This document shows positions 1 through 12,276 of a DNA stretch of 41,267 nt, piece by piece. How positions within the stretch are numbered: the stretch's first letter is position 1; each line of letters starts with the position of its first letter. The DNA lies in IMG/VR virus record IMGVR_UViG_3300049048_000044, positions 1-41,267 of that record; one strand, written 5' to 3'. The position numbers and the translations under genes are program-made. The stretch is from a virus. The notes beneath the pieces are model-generated. The model was given only the letters and a program-made list of their open reading frames with translations. It did no database searches and was not told the origin of the DNA.

Positions 1-127
1 CCAGCACATCGCACGCCACGAGGCGCAGGAAGTCGACGGCCGATGCCGGCGCGCCCGGCTGGTGCGGCAGCACGAGCTCGACGCCCTGCCGCGGGTCGCG
101 CTCGATCTGCGTGCACATCTGCGGCCG
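1..127. repeat. Terminal direct repeat, left copy (circular closure)
   Basis: These 127 bases are identical to the last 127 bases of the window (41141-41267). One gene runs across the join without interruption. The length of exactly 127 matches a common assembler k-mer, so this is most simply the overlap left when a circular or permuted phage genome is assembled, rather than a biological terminal repeat. The unit genome is then 41,140 bp. Confidence 0.93.
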
Positions 128-129
128 GC

Positions 130-288
130 TCACAGGCCCACCGCCAGCGCGAGGCACAGCGTCAGGAACAGGGCGACCGGGAACGGCCAGCGCACCGCCG
201 GCTCGCGGCCCATCCGGGCGACCGCTTCCTCGGCCATCAGGGCGTCCGCCTCGCGGCACGCCTTGGCGAACTGGTCGCGCGGGCTCAC
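130..288 (-). CDS. Small single-pass membrane protein (52 aa)
   Basis: The reading frame starts at a GTG (288-286) that overlaps the TGA of the upstream gene at 285-503 in a GTGA junction, and ends in TGA at 130-132. The first 33 residues are charged and helical. The last 18 or so (from PFPVALFLTLCLALAVGL) form one hydrophobic segment running to the C-terminus, as in a tail-anchored membrane protein. I do not recognise a family. It is the first of three consecutive GTG-started membrane microproteins; the next begins in its stop codon at 133 and crosses the circular junction. The tight coupling argues that it is a real gene. Confidence 0.6.
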   Translation of the reverse strand: MSPRDQFAKACREADALMAEEAVARMGREPAVRWPFPVALFLTLCLALAVGL

Positions 289-503
289 GGCGTCACCCTC
301 AGGCCGGCCGGCTTGTGCAGCGCCACGACTGCGTCGTTCAGGCTGAGGTAGGCGTCCATCAGCGGCTGGCAGGCCTCGCCTGCGCCGATGTTCTCCGCCA
401 TGTCCTTCAGGCGGTTGACGCCATAGCGGGCCTCGCGGATCGCTTCGAGCAGCGAGCGCGCCGACTCCGCGCAGATCGGCGGCGTGGGTGCGGGCAGGCT
501 CAT
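285..503 (-). CDS. Hypothetical helical protein (72 aa), leftward early operon
   Basis: A 72-residue, mostly helical protein with no hydrophobic segment and no motif I recognise. Its ATG (503) overlaps the stop of the upstream gene (500-808) as ATGA, and its own stop overlaps the GTG of the next gene, so it sits inside a translationally coupled string. It is the second gene downstream of the leftward promoter PL and would be expressed early after induction or infection. The lambda equivalent of this position holds N and small host-takeover genes, but nothing in the sequence shows N-like arginine-rich character, so the function is unknown. Confidence 0.65.
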   Translation of the reverse strand: MSLPAPTPPICAESARSLLEAIREARYGVNRLKDMAENIGAGEACQPLMDAYLSLNDAVVALHKPAGLRVTP

Positions 504-808
504 GCCGCCATCCTCGCCACGAGCGTCAGCGCGCGGCCGTAGCGGTCAGAGAGCAGGGCAGTGGCGCGCGCCGTGATGCCGGCCGCGATCAACTCGGTCT
601 TGCGGGCGTTGTGCTGAGTCCAGTCGCCGGTGACGAAAGCCTCGGCGGCCATCGCGTCGAGTTCGGCGTACTGCTCGGGGTGGAACCCACCGAGGATGTC
701 GACCAGCTCGGACTGGTCGTTGCGGATCTCGTGTTCGATGCGCTCGAAGGCAACGCAGGTGCCGCAGCGGGCGGCGTCGCCTGAGCAGGTGCAGCGGGGT
801 GCGCTCAT
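500..808 (-). CDS. Hypothetical Cys-containing protein (102 aa), first gene after PL
   Basis: First gene of the leftward operon. A purine-rich ribosome site (GGAG) lies just before the ATG at 808. The N-terminus has a cysteine cluster, C-T-C about residues 6-8 then C16 and C19, which could bind a metal; the rest is a helical, acidic domain. I recognise no family. Being first after PL makes it the earliest leftward product and therefore a candidate regulator or host-takeover protein, by position only. A 7-bp hairpin in its leader (821-840) sits immediately upstream of the ribosome site. Confidence 0.65.
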   Translation of the reverse strand: MSAPRCTCSGDAARCGTCVAFERIEHEIRNDQSELVDILGGFHPEQYAELDAMAAEAFVTGDWTQHNARKTELIAAGITARATALLSDRYGRALTLVARMAA

Positions 809-820
809 CGTGGACTCCTG

Positions 821-840
821 ACCCGGCGGGTGTGCCGGGT
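821..840 (-). promoter_or_regulatory. Leader hairpin between PL and the first gene
   Basis: ACCCGGC (821-827) and GCCGGGT (834-840) form a perfect 7-bp stem with a 6-nt loop in the PL transcript, ending about ten bases before the ribosome site of the gene starting at 808. No T-run follows in the direction of transcription, so it is not an intrinsic terminator. It could act as a boxB-like antitermination element, a 5' stabiliser or a translational control hairpin; the sequence does not decide between these. Confidence 0.45.
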
Positions 841-848
841 AGGAATCC

Positions 849-877
849 AGATTAGGACTGTCCTAACGCAACGTCAA
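849..877 (-). promoter_or_regulatory. Leftward early promoter PL with operator OL1
   Basis: Read on the minus strand: -35 box TTGACG (877-872), 17-bp spacer, -10 box TAATCT (854-849). The palindrome TTAGG-ACTGT-CCTAA (852-866) fills the spacer and touches the -10 box, so a bound repressor would block polymerase. The sequence CCTATTGACG at the -35 is identical to that at the rightward promoter (3587-3596), and the operator sits in the same place in both. This is direct evidence that the two promoters share one regulator. Confidence 0.82.
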
Positions 878-916
878 TAGGTGCAGCCTAAGCAGATCGC
901 GTTAGGTTGAGCCTTC
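877..916. promoter_or_regulatory. Operators OL2 and OL3
   Basis: Two further copies of the 15-bp operator lie upstream of PL: ATAGG-TGCAG-CCTAA (877-891), which reaches the -35 box, and TTAGG-TTGAG-CCTTC (902-916), with a degenerate right half. The centres of the three PL sites are 859, 884 and 909, exactly 25 bp apart. That is a little under two and a half helical turns and resembles lambda's three-operator arrays. A lone CCTAA half-site follows at 930-934. Confidence 0.72.
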
Positions 917-963
917 CGACGAACGGTCGCCTAAAGCAGAATGCGGGCTACCGTCTGCCTACG

Positions 964-1788
964 CTATTTGCCTTTGATCGGGTCGACCGCAGGCTTGTCG
1001 GGCGTAGCGGGGAGTTGCTTAGCACCAGCGGCTTGGGCCTCCCTCGCCAGCTTTAGCTCTTCACGCCTCGCCTCGATTTGTTCAAGTACGACCGTCGTAG
1101 CCGCAAGCGTCGCTTCGTTAGACGCGCTAACCGCCTGCCGAGAGTCTTGCTCGAGACTAGTGGTGGTTTTGATGTCGGACTTAATCGACCACACGCTACC
1201 GGCGAGCGTTGCAAGCACGGTCAGGAGACCACCGAGGAACAGCCCCTGGTAGTGCCTCCTGTCGTCTCGCATGTCGTTGCGACCCGCCGAAACATCGATT
1301 GCCAGGCGGCCGATCGCGTCCTCGATTCGGGCGATTCGGCCATCAATCTTGGTTTCCAGCGTCTCAAGCTTCGCTTGGAATAGGTCCCGCTCGGTCGCGC
1401 TCATGGGCGAATCATGGGGTGCTGGAGGTGAAGGATCAACATCGGAGGCCGCCTCGCGGCCAAGTGGCGCCTCCCAAGACTGGCTGAGCCGGATCTTCAG
1501 CCCGTCGGCCCTCGCCCTGTCGGCAAGAAGCCGCTGGCGGTAGCGCTCCAGTCGCAGCTGCGCCCTCGTTCGGCGGGCCCCCTTCCCAGACGGGGCAATG
1601 CCGTCCGAAAAAGTTGTTTGGGGGAAGGGGGCGACTCGTGCGCCTTCAAATGAGATTTGCGGCGCTGATCGGTCCGGGAGTTCGTCCGCGGTGACCGGCA
1701 CACGTTTTTCGCTGAGGCGACGAAGCCACGCGTCGCCCGTTACCGGAACGTCACGCGTCGGCATTTGCCGCGGATCCTCGCTTTGCAT
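964..1788 (-). CDS. Membrane-anchored coiled-coil protein in the rex position (274 aa)
   Basis: Last gene of the repressor operon and the one nearest PL. I use the ATG at 1788, which overlaps the end of the upstream gene by 38 bp; an upstream in-frame start at 1851 would lie wholly inside that gene. Residues 1-120 are basic and proline-rich with no recognised fold. Residues about 130-175 look like a coiled coil. One strong transmembrane segment covers about 181-203, and about 205-255 is again helical and charged. No signal peptide is visible. Base composition looks less GC-rich than the neighbours. The place between repressor and PL corresponds to lambda rexA/rexB, so expression in the lysogen and a role in host or superinfection phenotype are reasonable inferences. 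The exact function is unknown. Confidence 0.7.
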   Translation of the reverse strand: MQSEDPRQMPTRDVPVTGDAWLRRLSEKRVPVTADELPDRSAPQISFEGARVAPFPQTTFSDGIAPSGKGARRTRAQLRLERYRQRLLADRARADGLKIRLSQSWEAPLGREAASDVDPSPPAPHDSPMSATERDLFQAKLETLETKIDGRIARIEDAIGRLAIDVSAGRNDMRDDRRHYQGLFLGGLLTVLATLAGSVWSIKSDIKTTTSLEQDSRQAVSASNEATLAATTVVLEQIEARREELKLAREAQAAGAKQLPATPDKPAVDPIKGK

Positions 1789-2044
1789 GCTCAAGAATGA
1801 CTTCAGCCAGCTTCTCGAGCTTGTTCGCGGGAAGCGAAATCTCCGCCACAACGATCCGCCTCGTAGGAACTTCCACCTTCATCGCAGTCAATTCGCCGGT
1901 TCCCTCCACGCGAGGCGTGTCGTTCAGGTCGATATGGTCGCGGAAGAAGAACACGTGCATCTGCCCGTCATTGGTAGGTCCGGCAACCGCGAAGCTGGTG
2001 GCGGCCGTCTGCAGCGGCGCCGCGGGGGAAAAAATTGCTGTCAT
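1751..2044 (-). CDS. Hypothetical protein (97 aa), partner of the downstream membrane protein
   Basis: A 97-residue protein starting at the ATG at 2044. The middle part reads as alternating beta strands. The end has a strand followed by an amphipathic helix (RRIVVAEISLPANKLEKLAE). That order vaguely recalls small DUF3467-type proteins, but I cannot assign it. Its 3' end overlaps the membrane-protein gene (964-1788) by 38 bp, so the two are probably translated together and may work as a pair. It shares the lower-GC look of that gene. Expression from the repressor promoter in the lysogen is inferred from gene order. Confidence 0.62.
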   Translation of the reverse strand: MTAIFSPAAPLQTAATSFAVAGPTNDGQMHVFFFRDHIDLNDTPRVEGTGELTAMKVEVPTRRIVVAEISLPANKLEKLAEVILEHAKRGSAANADA

Positions 2045-2094
2045 GTGCTGCCCTCGATGATTGATTGCTTCGCTGATCGCGCCTTGACGGCAAG

Positions 2095-2511
2095 TCAGCC
2101 GCCGCCGATCTTCTTGCAGGCGGCGCAGTCGGAGGTAGGGGAGGGCGTCCCACTCGGCGCGGTCTCGTGCCGGTCGGTGTAGCGGATCGCCTCCGCCTCA
2201 ACCAACGTGTTCCGGGTGTTCTGACTGCGAGACGCGCGGACGATCACGACATCAGCGCCGAGGGATGCACCGGCGGCCTGCAACTGAGGAATGGCGTCTG
2301 CAACGGACGGATCCGTCCAACCTGGCTTGTAACGGTTCGCAGAGACGATGCCGACCGACTCGTAGGGCCGCTTCGGCTCTGAATAGAGCACCTGGACCGA
2401 TCCGGCTGCGGTAGGCGCATAAGCCGTTGGCGAATTGCGATGGACCTGCGTGGTGGAGCATCCGGCCGCGGCTGCAGCCAAGGCGAGAGCGGTGAGCGTG
2501 CGGAGCATCAT
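2095..2511 (-). CDS. Predicted lipoprotein (138 aa) in the repressor operon
   Basis: The protein opens with a lipoprotein signal peptide: Met-Met-Leu-Arg, a run of Leu and Ala, then lipobox A-A-G-C with the acylated Cys at about residue 18. The mature part is a compact domain (about 35-115) and a C-terminal tail with C-A-A-C near the end. The ATG-ATG start at 2511 overlaps the stop of the upstream small membrane protein (AATGATG), so the two are coupled. The product would be exported and tethered to a membrane. A lipoprotein encoded between repressor and PL fits a lysogenic-conversion or surface-exclusion role, as known for some prophage lipoproteins, but no known exclusion family is recognised. 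Confidence 0.72.
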   Translation of the reverse strand: MMLRTLTALALAAAAAGCSTTQVHRNSPTAYAPTAAGSVQVLYSEPKRPYESVGIVSANRYKPGWTDPSVADAIPQLQAAGASLGADVVIVRASRSQNTRNTLVEAEAIRYTDRHETAPSGTPSPTSDCAACKKIGGG

Positions 2512-2702
2512 TTCTGCGGTCCTCGCATGCCTTCGATTGCACGCGTGAAGACGTACGGGATGACGGCAAACGCGCATGCCATGGCCGCAGCTGCCCCCTG
2601 CTGCGGCGCGCTGGCGTCGGTGGCCAGCAGCATGTCGAGTGCCAGGAGGCCGCCGATTCCGCAGCCGGCCAGCGTGATAAACCAGCAAATCTTTACGAAC
2701 AT
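2508..2702 (-). CDS. Small two-pass membrane protein (64 aa)
   Basis: Two hydrophobic stretches, about residues 4-24 and 37-55, are separated by a short loop containing A-P-Q-Q-G-A-A-A-A. The C-terminus (IPYVFTRAIEGM) is of a type I have seen in small uncharacterised membrane proteins from proteobacteria and phages. Start is the ATG at 2702; the stop overlaps the lipoprotein start. Together with the downstream lipoprotein and the coiled-coil membrane protein, it makes three envelope-directed products in one repressor-linked operon. No enzymatic function is suggested. Confidence 0.68.
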   Translation of the reverse strand: MFVKICWFITLAGCGIGGLLALDMLLATDASAPQQGAAAAMACAFAVIPYVFTRAIEGMRGPQK

Positions 2703-2711
2703 CGTCGCCCC

Positions 2712-3056
2712 CTAAGTAAGTCCCGCCTCGTCGAACGCGATCCCATCCCGGATGCACTCGACTCCGCGCTCTACGCGGTCCAGCAACGCCTTCAGATCCT
2801 CGTCCGGCATTTCCTCAAGGGTGGCGAAGCCTCTCATCTGCTGCCGTGTCCACTGTTCCAGTCCGTAGATGCGGGTCCAGTAGCGCACCCGGTCCCGCAC
2901 GTACTCCCTGCCTTCATCGGTGTACAGCGCGGGGGGCTTCGGCGGCAGGTCCGCCGTGGTGATCAGCCGCAGCTTTGGTTTCGCCGGTGGGAACTGCTTA
3001 GCTAGCTTTTGCTCGAGCAGCGCCGTGATCCTGCTCACTTCCTCTTCCTCGTTCAT
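2712..3056 (-). CDS. Hypothetical protein following the repressor (114 aa)
   Basis: The ATG at 3056 is preceded by a good ribosome site (GCGAGG) but lies 59 bp inside the 3' end of the repressor gene, so the two are transcribed together. The protein begins with an acidic M-N-E-E-E-E, has a proline-rich linker around residues 22-42 and a helical C-terminal half rich in Arg, Glu and Trp. There is no membrane segment and no family I recognise. The long overlap with the repressor suggests it was fixed in this position and is expressed in the lysogen. Confidence 0.62.
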   Translation of the reverse strand: MNEEEEVSRITALLEQKLAKQFPPAKPKLRLITTADLPPKPPALYTDEGREYVRDRVRYWTRIYGLEQWTRQQMRGFATLEEMPDEDLKALLDRVERGVECIRDGIAFDEAGLT

Positions 3057-3552
3057 TCCGCCTCGCCTGGTAGCCCTGCACTAGATCGGCCAAGGCGAAG
3101 CTGAAGGCGTCGTCAGGTTCTGGATCGGCCCGTGACTTCTCGTACTCGGCGACCGCTGCTAGCAGCAGCTCGGCGTCGAGTTCGTCTGTCACGTCAAATT
3201 CCATCTCGCGACGCGCAAGGAACCGCTTCAGGGCCTTGGCAGTGCGGGCGAGGGTGCGAGGCTGGTGTCGCACCGGCTGTGACGCCTCTGGGGGCAAGCC
3301 TGTGGATAGATCGCCGACACCGAAGTAGAGCGCGTCAAACGTGCTTCCATGGTCTTCGGCGATCCGACGAGCGGTCGAGGTGTTGGGCTTGAACTGACCG
3401 TTGAGCCAGTCGTTCGCGGTGACGGTCGAGACCTTGTACCGGTCCGCCAGGTACTTCCCGGCGCCCCGTCGCTGGATGTCGCGCGAGCGAAGGAGCCCGA
3501 CGAGTCGCTCGCCGAACTCCAGTGCGTCCTTATCTAAGGCCCTTTTTGCCAT
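2998..3552 (-). CDS. CI-like XRE-family repressor without a peptidase domain (184 aa)
   Basis: Leftward member of a divergent regulator pair. I choose the ATG at 3552, which opens a clean N-terminal helix-turn-helix domain (residues about 10-75, with the recognition region near 40-55, V-S-T-V-T-A-N-D-W-L). An AGGGAG lies about 11 bases upstream. The C-terminal half is charged and helical. I see no Ala-Gly cleavage site and no Ser/Lys dyad of the S24 (LexA/lambda CI) peptidase, so RecA-stimulated self-cleavage is unlikely. It should bind the TTAGG-N5-CCTAA palindromes next to it and at PL. Calling it the lysogeny repressor follows from position and fold; how it is inactivated at induction is unknown. 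Confidence 0.85.
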   Translation of the reverse strand: MAKRALDKDALEFGERLVGLLRSRDIQRRGAGKYLADRYKVSTVTANDWLNGQFKPNTSTARRIAEDHGSTFDALYFGVGDLSTGLPPEASQPVRHQPRTLARTAKALKRFLARREMEFDVTDELDAELLLAAVAEYEKSRADPEPDDAFSFALADLVQGYQARRNERGRGSEQDHGAARAKAS

Positions 3553-3576
3553 CGGGAAAGACTCCCTGATAGGCGG

Positions 3577-3620
3577 TAAGGTTTGCCCTATTGACGGGAA
3601 GATTAGGAGTGGCCTAATAA
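3577..3620 (+). promoter_or_regulatory. Rightward early promoter PR with operators OR1 and OR2
   Basis: Plus strand: -35 box TTGACG (3591-3596), 18-bp spacer, -10 box TAATAA (3615-3620), with the Cro-like ATG at 3629. The perfect palindrome TTAGG-AGTGG-CCTAA (3603-3617) lies between the boxes. A second, imperfect copy, TAAGG-TTTGC-CCTAT (3577-3591), abuts the -35. Centres are 26 bp apart. A very weak third match (3552-3566) would overlap the repressor start codon. The repressor's own promoter is not obvious but must lie within this 76-bp gap or inside the Cro-like gene. Confidence 0.83.
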
Positions 3621-3628
3621 TAGACGCC

Positions 3629-3853
3629 ATGGAAAATCCGACCCCTCTAGAGCGTGCGATCGAGAAGATGGGCACCCAGCAAGCGCTGGCTGATGCCCTG
3701 GGCATCCGATCCCCGTCCATCACCGAGTGGCACCGCAGGGGCATCCCCCCGGAGCGCTGCCGCCAGATCGAGGGGCTGACCGGCATTCGCCGCGCGGACC
3801 TGAGGCCCGACATCTTCGGCCCAGCCCCCAAGCCCGGCCGCCGGGTGGCCTGA
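3629..3853 (+). CDS. Cro-like / YdaS-like HTH regulator (74 aa)
   Basis: First gene of the rightward operon, starting at the ATG at 3629, nine bases after the -10 box, so the leader is very short. The protein is essentially one helix-turn-helix domain (residues about 5-60; Q-Q-A-L-A-D-A-L-G, then S-P-S-I-T-E-W), of the small YdaS/Cro type, with a Pro- and Arg-rich tail. By position and size it should be the Cro counterpart: it would compete with the repressor for the shared palindromes and turn down early transcription. A YdaS-type antitoxin reading is possible, but no toxin gene is adjacent. Confidence 0.82.
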   Translation: MENPTPLERAIEKMGTQQALADALGIRSPSITEWHRRGIPPERCRQIEGLTGIRRADLRPDIFGPAPKPGRRVA

Positions 3854-3854
3854 C

Positions 3855-4067
3855 GTGACCACGGACGAGCGCCTGGCGCTCTTTGCCCTCGTGCACGCCG
3901 TCGCGGCCGCGTCCCAAGCCATCGGCTTGGCGCTGCAGTCGCTCCACGCGCTGGCGGTGGCCCACGAGGACTCCATGCCCGACCCGCGGTTCGCGGGGAG
4001 CGCGCTGGTTTGCGTGGGCTGCCTGTTCGAACGGCTCGGGATCCCGGCCGTCGAGGTGCAGCCGTGA
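3855..4067 (+). CDS. Hypothetical helical protein (70 aa)
   Basis: Starts with GTG at 3855, one base after the Cro-like stop, and ends in TGA at 4065-4067, which overlaps the next GTG. The protein is almost entirely helical and Ala/Leu-rich, with a C-V-G-C pair near residues 53-56. A CII-type activator is often encoded here in lambdoid phages, but I see no helix-turn-helix in it, so I do not call it CII. The function is unknown; the coupled start and stop support it as a gene. Confidence 0.6.
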   Translation: MTTDERLALFALVHAVAAASQAIGLALQSLHALAVAHEDSMPDPRFAGSALVCVGCLFERLGIPAVEVQP

Positions 4068-4327
4068 GCCGTCCTGTCCATGGAGCCATCGTGCTCCCGT
4101 TCCCCGTGCGCCCGGCATCGGGCAATGCGGCGACGGCGTGTAGGACTTCTCCGACACCGGCAGGCGGGGAGCCATCCCTGTCAGGGGCTGCCTCGCCTGC
4201 CGGGCGGGCCGTGTTCTCCATCGGGCCCGAGCCCGAGCGCGGCCTCAGCGACGACGAGCTCGTCGACTGGATCCGGATGCACCTGCCGCGCGCGAAAGGC
4301 GGGATTTCGTCGGGAGGCCTGCCGTGA
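4064..4327 (+). CDS. Hypothetical protein (87 aa)
   Basis: The GTG at 4064 lies in the stop of the preceding gene (GTGA). The first 55 residues are low in secondary structure and rich in Pro, Ala, Ser and Gly. The last 30 contain a short acidic helix (L-S-D-D-E-L-V-D-W-I-R-M-H-L) that looks like a protein-interaction motif. No family is recognised. It is the last gene before the 383-bp gap that precedes the replication genes. Confidence 0.5.
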   Translation: MSRPVHGAIVLPFPVRPASGNAATACRTSPTPAGGEPSLSGAASPAGRAVFSIGPEPERGLSDDELVDWIRMHLPRAKGGISSGGLP

Positions 4328-4710
4328 ACTGACCGAACCCACTTCCGCGCCCCTTGCGAATCGGTAGGGCGCACCCGCGGCGAACCAGGCGGGCCGAGGC
4401 ATCGGGTGACGACCGATGAGGCTGCAAAGCCGGGGCTGGTTCAAGGGCTGACTGACCAAGGGTCGCCCTCTGCTCTACCGCCAGACGCGATCCAACGCGC
4501 TGGGGGGTAGGGGGGGGCTTAGGGCTCCCACCTGAAGCGGAGCCGCTCGGTAAAGCCAAGAAGCACAAAAGCCCGGCAGCAGGTCGAGGTTCTAGCTGGG
4601 AGTACGGGGATACCGCACACGCGAGGCAGGCGCGACGACCTGCCGGAAAGACGAAGCCCCCGGCATGTCGGGCAGACACGGGCCGAGGGCTTCGGGACAT
4701 CGAGGCAAGT
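4328..4710. other. Structured 383-bp non-coding gap before the helicase
   Basis: No convincing gene. It holds several potential secondary structures: a hairpin CATCGG/CCGATG with a 7-nt loop (4400-4418); three G-runs of 6, 8 and 3 (4502-4507, 4510-4517, 4522-4524), which come close to a G-quadruplex; a hairpin GGCAGG/CCTGCC (4625-4644); and an 8-bp inverted repeat CGAAGCCC/GGGCTTCG (4652-4659, 4687-4694) just before the helicase start. It could be a replication origin, an antitermination or attenuator region, or a structured RNA leader. Its place directly before the helicase and primase favours an origin or leader, as inference only. Confidence 0.45.
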
Positions 4711-11221: not shown

Positions 11222-11421
11222 GCCGGTCGAAGCCAGTTCCCGGTGCCGTCGAGGTGCTGCAGGAAGCGCTCGACTCGGCCAAGGCTGGCGAAGTGACCGA
11301 CGTCTACGTAGCGGTCCGCTACCGCGAGGGCGCCTGGGACACGGATTGGTACACCACAGACATTGATGCGATGGCTTTCGAGCTTCGCAGCGAAACGATC
11401 CGGCTCCGTTCGCGGGGCTGA
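11218..11421 (+). CDS. Hypothetical protein (67 aa)
   Basis: The ATG at 11218 overlaps the phosphoesterase stop. An N-terminal helix (A-V-E-V-L-Q-E-A-L-D-S-A) is followed by strands (V-T-D-V-Y-V-A-V-R-Y) and a C-terminal helix (M-A-F-E-L-R-S-E-T). No family is recognised. A terminator-like hairpin follows (11451-11468), which separates it from the lysis genes. Confidence 0.6.
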   Translation: MSRSKPVPGAVEVLQEALDSAKAGEVTDVYVAVRYREGAWDTDWYTTDIDAMAFELRSETIRLRSRG

Positions 11422-11450
11422 CGGTTCGGCCACGTCGAGAGACGCCGCCA

Positions 11451-11475
11451 GAGGCCCTTCGGGGCCTCGCCTATT
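11451..11475 (+). terminator. Terminator-like hairpin with UUCG loop before the lysis cassette
   Basis: GAGGCCC (11451-11457), TTCG loop, GGGCCTC (11462-11468), then CGCCTATTT. A stable 7-bp stem capped by a UUCG tetraloop. The T-run is weak, so it may be a partial terminator or an mRNA end-stabiliser. It lies 20 bp before the holin start. Confidence 0.55.
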
Positions 11476-11488
11476 TGCAGGACGCGCA

Positions 11489-11725
11489 GTGAAAGACCAT
11501 ACCGCCGAGACCATCGCCTCGTTCGCCACGAAGGCCACCTATTCGGGCGGCGCAACAGCCGTCATCGGGGGCTTCACGGCCAGCGAGATCGCCGCATTCG
11601 TCGGCGCCGCGGTGGCGGTCATTGGCTTGCTTGTGCAGGTCTACTTCAAGGTCCGGACCGATCGACGCGAGGTGGAGCTCCACAAGCATCGTCTCGCCGA
11701 ACTGTCGGAAGGCGACGCGTCGTGA
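11489..11725 (+). CDS. Holin, phage 21 S-like (78 aa)
   Basis: A GTG start at 11489 gives a protein with two membrane segments: a weak, Gly/Ala/Thr-rich first one (about residues 8-28) and a strong second one (about 32-53, E-I-A-A-F-V-G-A-A-V-A-V-I-G), then Q-V-Y-F-K-V-R-T-D-R-R and a charged tail. The N-Y/V-Y-F-K-I/V-R-x-D-R-R junction matches the phage 21 S holin. In that family a weakly hydrophobic first segment can leave the membrane and the holin forms small pinholes that depolarise the cell. This fits the SAR endolysin encoded next, with which it overlaps by 4 bp. Confidence 0.8.
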   Translation: MKDHTAETIASFATKATYSGGATAVIGGFTASEIAAFVGAAVAVIGLLVQVYFKVRTDRREVELHKHRLAELSEGDAS

Positions 11726-12276
11726 GCAAGGCGAAGGCTGCTGGAGCGCTGGTCCTGGGCTCGGCGGCACTCATAGCCTTCCTCGGCGACTGGGAGGGTG
11801 GGCGCGACGTGCGCGGCGACTCGGTGGCCTACGCCGACCGCCTCGCCGGTGGCCTGCCGACGGTGTGCGCGGGGCTCACGCGCCACGTGACCAAGACGCC
11901 GATCGTCGTCGGACAGAAGTGGTCGGCGGCGAAGTGCGATGCCGAGGAAGCGCGGGCCATCGCGGTCATGCAGTCCCGGCTGGTGAGCTGCTTCATCGGC
12001 CCTCCACCGCAGAGCGTGTTCGACGCAGCAAGTTCGCACGCCTGGAACAACGGCCTCTCCGCCACGTGCGGGAGCCTCGCCATGCAGGCGTGGCAGCGTG
12101 GCGACTGGGCCCTCGGCTGCCGTCGGCTTTACCGGTCCGACTCGGGCCGCCCGGTGTGGAGCTACGTGAAGACCGGGCGCCTTCAGCCGAATGGCCGCCC
12201 CGAGATGAAGTTCGTGCAGGGCCTGGCCAACCGGCGGGTCGCTGAGTACCGCATGTGCCTGGAGGGCATCCGATGA
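11722..12276 (+). CDS. SAR endolysin, glycoside hydrolase family 24 lysozyme (184 aa)
   Basis: GTG start overlapping the holin stop. Residues about 4-22 form a mildly hydrophobic Ala/Gly/Leu-rich segment without a cleavage site, as in signal-anchor-release endolysins. Right after it come W-E-G (E25), Y-A-D (D39) and L-P-T-V-C (T47), the E-D/C-T arrangement of T4-like lysozymes. The spacing between E and D is longer than in T4 lysozyme, and G-L-T replaces the usual G-H-T. The enzyme cuts peptidoglycan after release from the membrane on depolarisation. The holin upstream and spanins downstream make the lysis role secure. Confidence 0.88.
   Translation: MSKAKAAGALVLGSAALIAFLGDWEGGRDVRGDSVAYADRLAGGLPTVCAGLTRHVTKTPIVVGQKWSAAKCDAEEARAIAVMQSRLVSCFIGPPPQSVFDAASSHAWNNGLSATCGSLAMQAWQRGDWALGCRRLYRSDSGRPVWSYVKTGRLQPNGRPEMKFVQGLANRRVAEYRMCLEGIR

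Follow-up and report, generated by a model that had tools for sequence, protein, structure and literature searches.

Rex-slot cassette of a lambda-like temperate phage, apparently assembled from independent parts and encoding a predicted RcsF-fold lipoprotein

The DNA analysed here, a window of 41,267 nucleotides (positions 1 to 41,267 of IMG/VR virus record IMGVR_UViG_3300049048_000044), carries five minus-strand genes between a repressor gene and PL (Table 1). This arrangement, all five genes reading in the repressor direction, had been described in a first-pass annotation, and the open reading frames and their codon statistics confirm it at the same coordinates. The palindrome TTAGGNNNNNCCTAA, searched for across the 41 kb with at most 2 mismatches, matches five times: three matches form the OL cluster, two form the OR cluster, and none lies outside these clusters. 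The number of matches is itself unremarkable, with 2.6 expected by chance; the remarkable feature is their placement, exactly in both regions expected for OL and OR. The two clusters bracket the repressor and the cassette, and a Cro-like gene diverges from the repressor on the side opposite the cassette. The rex position proposed earlier is thus borne out, and operator placement together with the diverging Cro-like gene gives good support to a lambda-like order, OL - accessory genes - repressor - OR - cro. Neither a sigma-70-like promoter nor a same-strand terminator was recognised in positions 700-4000, where the single terminator-like site lies on the strand opposite the cassette. Judged by its position, the cassette would be transcribed in lysogens, leftward with the repressor from PRM. 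A DNA search of INPHARED with positions 1-4700 found no related phage, and a tblastn search of the same collection with genes 1-5 gave no match. Relatives of genes 1, 3 and 4, described below, point to Xanthomonadales as the host group.

Table 1. Features of the immunity region, in window coordinates
Feature	Position	Strand	Description
OL operator cluster at PL	852-916		Three palindromic sites: 852-866 (perfect), 877-891, 902-916
Gene 5	964-1788	-	274 aa; basic N-terminal part, coiled-coil-like stretch, charged C-terminus
Gene 4	1751-2044	-	97-aa soluble protein, predicted beta-beta-beta-alpha, GPTNDGQMHVFFFR motif
Gene 3	2095-2511	-	138-aa predicted outer-membrane lipoprotein, RcsF-like fold; lipid Cys 18, Ser at +2
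Gene 2	2508-2702	-	64-aa small membrane protein; phrog_12304 (family annotated function unknown)
Gene 1	2712-3056	-	114-aa acidic protein, net charge -4; phrog_27415 (family annotated function unknown)
Repressor	2998-3552	-	184-aa HTH protein; weak HTH_3 and phage repressor matches
OR operator cluster, repressor/cro gap	3577-3617		Two sites: 3577-3591, 3603-3617 (perfect)
Cro-like gene	3629-3853	+	YdaS_toxin E 3.4e-19, P22_Cro E 1.3e-7

The five open reading frames are real genes. Length by itself is weak evidence in such GC-rich DNA: among dinucleotide-shuffled versions of the region, 3% contain an ATG frame of 274 codons or more and 89% contain one of 114 codons or more. For each of genes 1-5, however, codon statistics score the gene's own frame best against all five other frames; plausible ribosome sites are present for genes 1-4, and relatives were found elsewhere for these same four of the five. 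Packing is tight, with 9 bp from the gene 1 stop to the gene 2 start, an ATGA common to the gene 2 stop and the gene 3 start, and the 38-bp overlap of genes 4 and 5 noted in the first-pass annotation. This last overlap would shrink to 14 bp with an alternative start of gene 5 at ATG 1764, which is preceded by GAGG and may be the true one. The stretch at 0.6-3.0 kb is the GC minimum of a genome that averages 68.1%. Gene 4 is lowest (59.5%), and gene 5 is like genes 1 and 2 (each about 62-63%); low GC therefore marks the whole cassette, not genes 4 and 5 in particular, as had been supposed. The view that none of the five products belongs to a known defence family stands: no PADLOC family was matched at E up to 1, NCBIfam gave no match, and Pfam gave none above cut-off. 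Viral scans with the single sequences of genes 1, 2, 4 and 5 likewise returned no relatives.

Gene 1 begins 59 bp within the 3' end of the repressor gene. Its relative in a Xanthomonadales prophage (genome G121, locus L034; BLASTP E 5e-17) likewise starts within the 3' end of a repressor gene, and BLASTP finds no similarity between that repressor and the one described here. Because the relative overlaps an unrelated repressor, gene 1 appears to be an immunity-region accessory tied to no single repressor lineage. A small gene after the repressor of another phage (L003) resembled gene 1 by eye; BLASTP gave no support, and we treat it as a positional analogue only. By position, the nearest analogue of gene 1 is Hex of phage 434, which is likewise the first gene past the repressor, overlaps the repressor 3' end, shares the repressor transcript from PRM and restrains spontaneous induction (PMC3564112). 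The likeness is one of position (Hex has 158 aa, gene 1 has 114 aa), and it stays positional because Hex acts on RecA-driven repressor autocleavage, whereas a family profile search found no S24 peptidase or autocleavage domain in the repressor here. The same absence weighs on the idea that the cassette merely tunes lysogeny, with gene 1 stabilising or modulating the repressor as Hex does and the remaining genes carried passively. Such a role would agree with the overlap seen both here and in G121 and with the action of Hex in 434, yet it would account for gene 1 only, and gene 3 recurs without gene 1; we consider it distinctly unlikely.

At the other end of the cassette, gene 4 has weak relatives, about 30% identical, in 8 of 300 Xanthomonadales genomes. 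They are single chromosomal genes, and no gene resembling gene 5 comes after any of them. Searching a whole class with gene 4 gave no match, and searching the order gave weak hits only; its alignment had no match in the viral search, and its structural model had none either. A likeness of the protein to DUF3467 was considered and is not claimed, as Pfam gave no DUF3467 match. The relatives, which form a family with the motif GPTDDGxxHLHFFR, have no Pfam model and in Xanthomonadales often adjoin a gene for a Na+/H+ antiporter-like membrane protein (L025, L026, L028, L030 and L032). Gene 5 encodes a protein with one hydrophobic segment, near residues 182-202. Viral, INPHARED, genome and plasmid searches gave it no trusted relative, and weak genome hits (E about 1e-4), which fall inside or beside ribosomal and housekeeping genes, were dismissed as chance matches; by sequence it appears to be an orphan membrane protein. 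The overlap of genes 4 and 5 permits a paired unit, which is possible, and comparative support is absent. The earlier suggestion that the two were acquired together loses its footing with the cassette-wide low GC and the solitary chromosomal relatives of gene 4, and the same pair, when looked for next to those relatives, was not found. We also considered a Rex-like, toxin-antitoxin or abortive-infection pair, in which the soluble protein would control the membrane-anchored one. Overlapping frames, the combination of products and the rex position speak for such a pair; no PADLOC model was matched, however, gene 4 relatives are unpaired, and RexB has several hydrophobic segments where gene 5 has one, which leaves the idea improbable.

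Genes 2 and 3 are probably translationally coupled through the shared ATGA, which follows from the most likely start of gene 3 (position 2511). The gene 2 protein has two hydrophobic segments, of which the second only just reaches threshold. A search of 200 Xanthomonadales genomes for the phrog_12304 family, run without a positive control, gave no match. With the hydrophobic segments of genes 2 and 5 and the lipobox of gene 3, the description of three cassette products as envelope-directed fits. The lipobox of gene 3 reads AAGC and is followed by Ser at +2. In an alignment of 11 relatives the lipid cysteine is invariant, a core motif RYKPGWTDPTVSDAIPQL is shared, and Ser, Thr or Gly follows the lipid cysteine in every member. 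Gene 3 thus shares with lipoproteins of the Llp/Cor type a signal peptide with a lipobox and an outer-membrane sorting residue.

The structural model of gene 3 has a whole-chain mean pLDDT of 70.5, with about half of the chain above 70 and core blocks above 90. Its best solved matches in Foldseek are RcsF structures (2y1b and 2l8y; E 4.1e-5 and 4.4e-5, prob 1.00), and further matches include the periplasmic domain of IgaA and BamA-bound RcsF. At a TM-score by target of 0.60-0.67 and about 18% identity to RcsF, the mature domain is predicted to adopt an RcsF-like fold. The periplasmic domain of RcsF contains four cysteines in two disulphides, a pattern absent from gene 3: the only cysteines of gene 3 are residues 18 (the lipid cysteine), 129 and 132, the last two lying in a C-terminal tail and not conserved in the family. 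None of the 11 relatives reaches the Pfam cut-off for the RcsF family PF16358 (best E 0.063), and sub-threshold Pfam hits among them fall to DUF4156 (five of 11), RcsF (one) and YbjQ_1 (one). By score and cysteine pattern, gene 3 is not a member of the RcsF family. A spanin assignment was rejected, as the hits cover the signal peptide only (E about 0.1) and the lysis genes (holin, lysozyme) lie away from the cassette, at 11363-12276; neither module location nor a family match places gene 3 among lysis or structural genes.

Relatives of gene 3 recur in the same slot and as cargo elsewhere. In two other IMG/VR phages (L002 and L003), the relative also occupies the repressor-to-PL slot. The control regions on either side have repeats in common, and visual inspection shows terminator-like hairpins past the cassette. 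The three phages have different operator repeats, and their repressors show no convincing similarity (pairwise BLASTP E 0.009, 3.1 and 7.5). Ten of the 300 Xanthomonadales genomes searched contain relatives, eight of them as strong matches; several copies lie near tRNA genes, and at three loci (L004, L036 and L039) phage or satellite-like genes accompany the relative. Genome G263 has two copies at two sites, and a Thoeris pair (L035:5354-6759, near tRNA-Ser), consisting of a macro-domain ThsA and ThsB (E 7e-116 and 1e-65), directly adjoins a relative in this genome. In genome G135, a CAP12/Pycsar-type TIR protein is encoded near a relative that is probably truncated. Two relatives in Pseudoxanthomonas have chromosomal surroundings with no obvious phage genes nearby, and a plasmid search with gene 3 gave no match. 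Between close pairs of relatives dN/dS is mostly 0.03-0.15; the family is under purifying selection. Recurrence as cargo and low dN/dS are hallmarks of a mobile accessory gene that is being retained. The most divergent relatives (L016 and L018, near 1489-1866) lie close to phosphoglycerate kinase in two genomes and possibly represent a resident chromosomal type.

Because genes 1 and 3 have relatives that are found apart from the remaining genes, the cassette appears to be made up of several independent cargo parts, which argues against the single undescribed five-gene system envisaged in the first-pass annotation. Genes that lysogens express from beside the repressor have already yielded proteins active in phage defence, such as Rex and BstA. 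Lambda rexA/rexB, the RexAB-type genes of P. putida and BstA of BTP1 resemble the cassette as lysogen accessory genes near a repressor, but RexA/RexB-type defence models are matched by none of the five proteins (PADLOC, NCBIfam and above-cut-off Pfam). The cassette is thus a real instance of the already known rex-slot kind, new in composition, with the recurrent lipoprotein of predicted RcsF fold as its noteworthy part.

We tentatively propose, with confidence somewhat short of even, that the cassette comprises lysogen-expressed morons, among which the gene 3 lipoprotein would act as an RcsF-fold envelope plug against superinfecting phages. RcsF first docks in BamA, from where it is passed on to OmpA, OmpC and OmpF (PMC7553776), and the T5 lipoprotein Llp binds the periplasmic side of FhuA, reshaping its outer loops and thereby preventing phage binding (PMC9586334). 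On the combined strength of these precedents, we propose the following hypothetical scenario, in which (i) a block of cargo genes within the immunity region of a lambdoid phage, built from independent parts, would be read leftward with the repressor from PRM; (ii) gene 1 would supply an immunity accessory, its translation running through the repressor 3' end, genes 2 and 3 a translationally coupled small membrane protein and RcsF-fold outer-membrane lipoprotein, and genes 4 and 5 a cytosolic and a membrane-anchored protein; (iii) the Lol pathway would carry the gene 3 lipoprotein to the outer membrane; (iv) there it would dock on a host beta-barrel, as RcsF does with BamA, OmpA, OmpC or OmpF, or Llp/Cor with FhuA; and (v) phages needing the occupied barrel would fail to bind or inject, leaving the lysogen safe from superinfection, while the products of genes 2 and 5 may work at the inner membrane. 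Phage exclusion by gene 3 is plausible: its slot holds a model match to the barrel-docking RcsF, and the gene recurs as cargo, with two copies adjoining or close to known defence genes. The flanking operator clusters, the shared slot in L002 and L003, the purifying selection on gene 3 relatives and the overlap of a gene 1 relative with an unrelated repressor also favour the proposal. Several points count against it: known superinfection-exclusion lipoproteins are usually encoded downstream of gpJ and not by the repressor (PMC9586334); the RcsF-like fold also occurs in IgaA, YdgH-type and DUF74 periplasmic proteins, which have no known phage role; the region has no recognisable promoter consensus; and the two Pseudoxanthomonas relatives have no obvious phage neighbours.

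The main rival is lysogenic conversion without exclusion, in which the lipoprotein, with gene 2, would shift envelope stress signalling or the surface properties of the lysogen, in the manner of an RcsF-like decoy or of a fitness lipoprotein of the Bor type. The predicted RcsF-like fold and the behaviour of gene 3 as mobile, conserved cargo would suit such a role, and the Serratia temperate phage vB_SspM_BZS1 has a putative RcsF homologue, a phage-borne RcsF-like lipoprotein that lies beside the lysis cluster, whereas gene 3 lies in the repressor operon (PMC7556043). Defence, however, would better account for the two gene 3 copies that adjoin known anti-phage genes. Most of what is known of the Rcs relay comes from enterobacteria, which makes an Rcs target in Xanthomonadales uncertain. 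We regard conversion of this kind as unlikely, though less so than the tuning of lysogeny discussed above.

The proposed plug shares features with known lipoproteins and differs from each of them. Like RcsF of E. coli, gene 3 encodes a lipoprotein whose linker is short and flexible, and the two agree in predicted core fold; the gene 3 family, in contrast, is phage- or element-borne and below every Pfam cut-off. Llp of T5 and Cor of phi80, N15 and T1 are also small phage lipoproteins, comparable in the predicted outer-membrane location and the proposed exclusion role. However, family libraries reveal no sequence relation between them and gene 3, Llp has about 61 residues against 138, and the Llp/Cor genes lie by receptor-binding or gpJ genes instead of in a repressor operon. 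If gene 3 does exclude phages, it would stand for a defence class missed by current family libraries, with a mechanism that is immediately testable by asking which barrel is occupied. A wider hypothesis, somewhat unlikely in our estimation, is that the RcsF-fold lipoproteins of Xanthomonadales temperate phages and satellite-like elements constitute a hitherto undescribed superinfection-exclusion system that occupies beta-barrels (BamA or porins), is retained in the repressor operon to ensure its production in all lysogens, and has gene 2 as its inner-membrane partner.

Several further genes were observed at the loci examined. A second exported-protein family with the motif CGEVNAKNxxGGYxGF (L034:7052-7468, L036:7471-7845 and L039:7393-7752) is encoded in the G121 prophage, within the repressor operon, by the L034 copy, which matches phrog_2320 (E 1.5e-21). 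The same family directly adjoins the RcsF-fold lipoprotein in L036 and L039, two satellite-like elements linked to tRNA genes. In genome G105, a PIN_12-domain protein (L037:7191-8312) with a GC3 of 0.45, far under its surroundings, directly adjoins a lipoprotein copy; it had no match in PADLOC and is a candidate defence gene. A membrane protein starting MDxxxxxTxGIAVVGATLGVFNA adjoins the lipoprotein in Rhodanobacter (L004:7365-7853) and is also encoded in the G121 prophage (L034:7785-8246).
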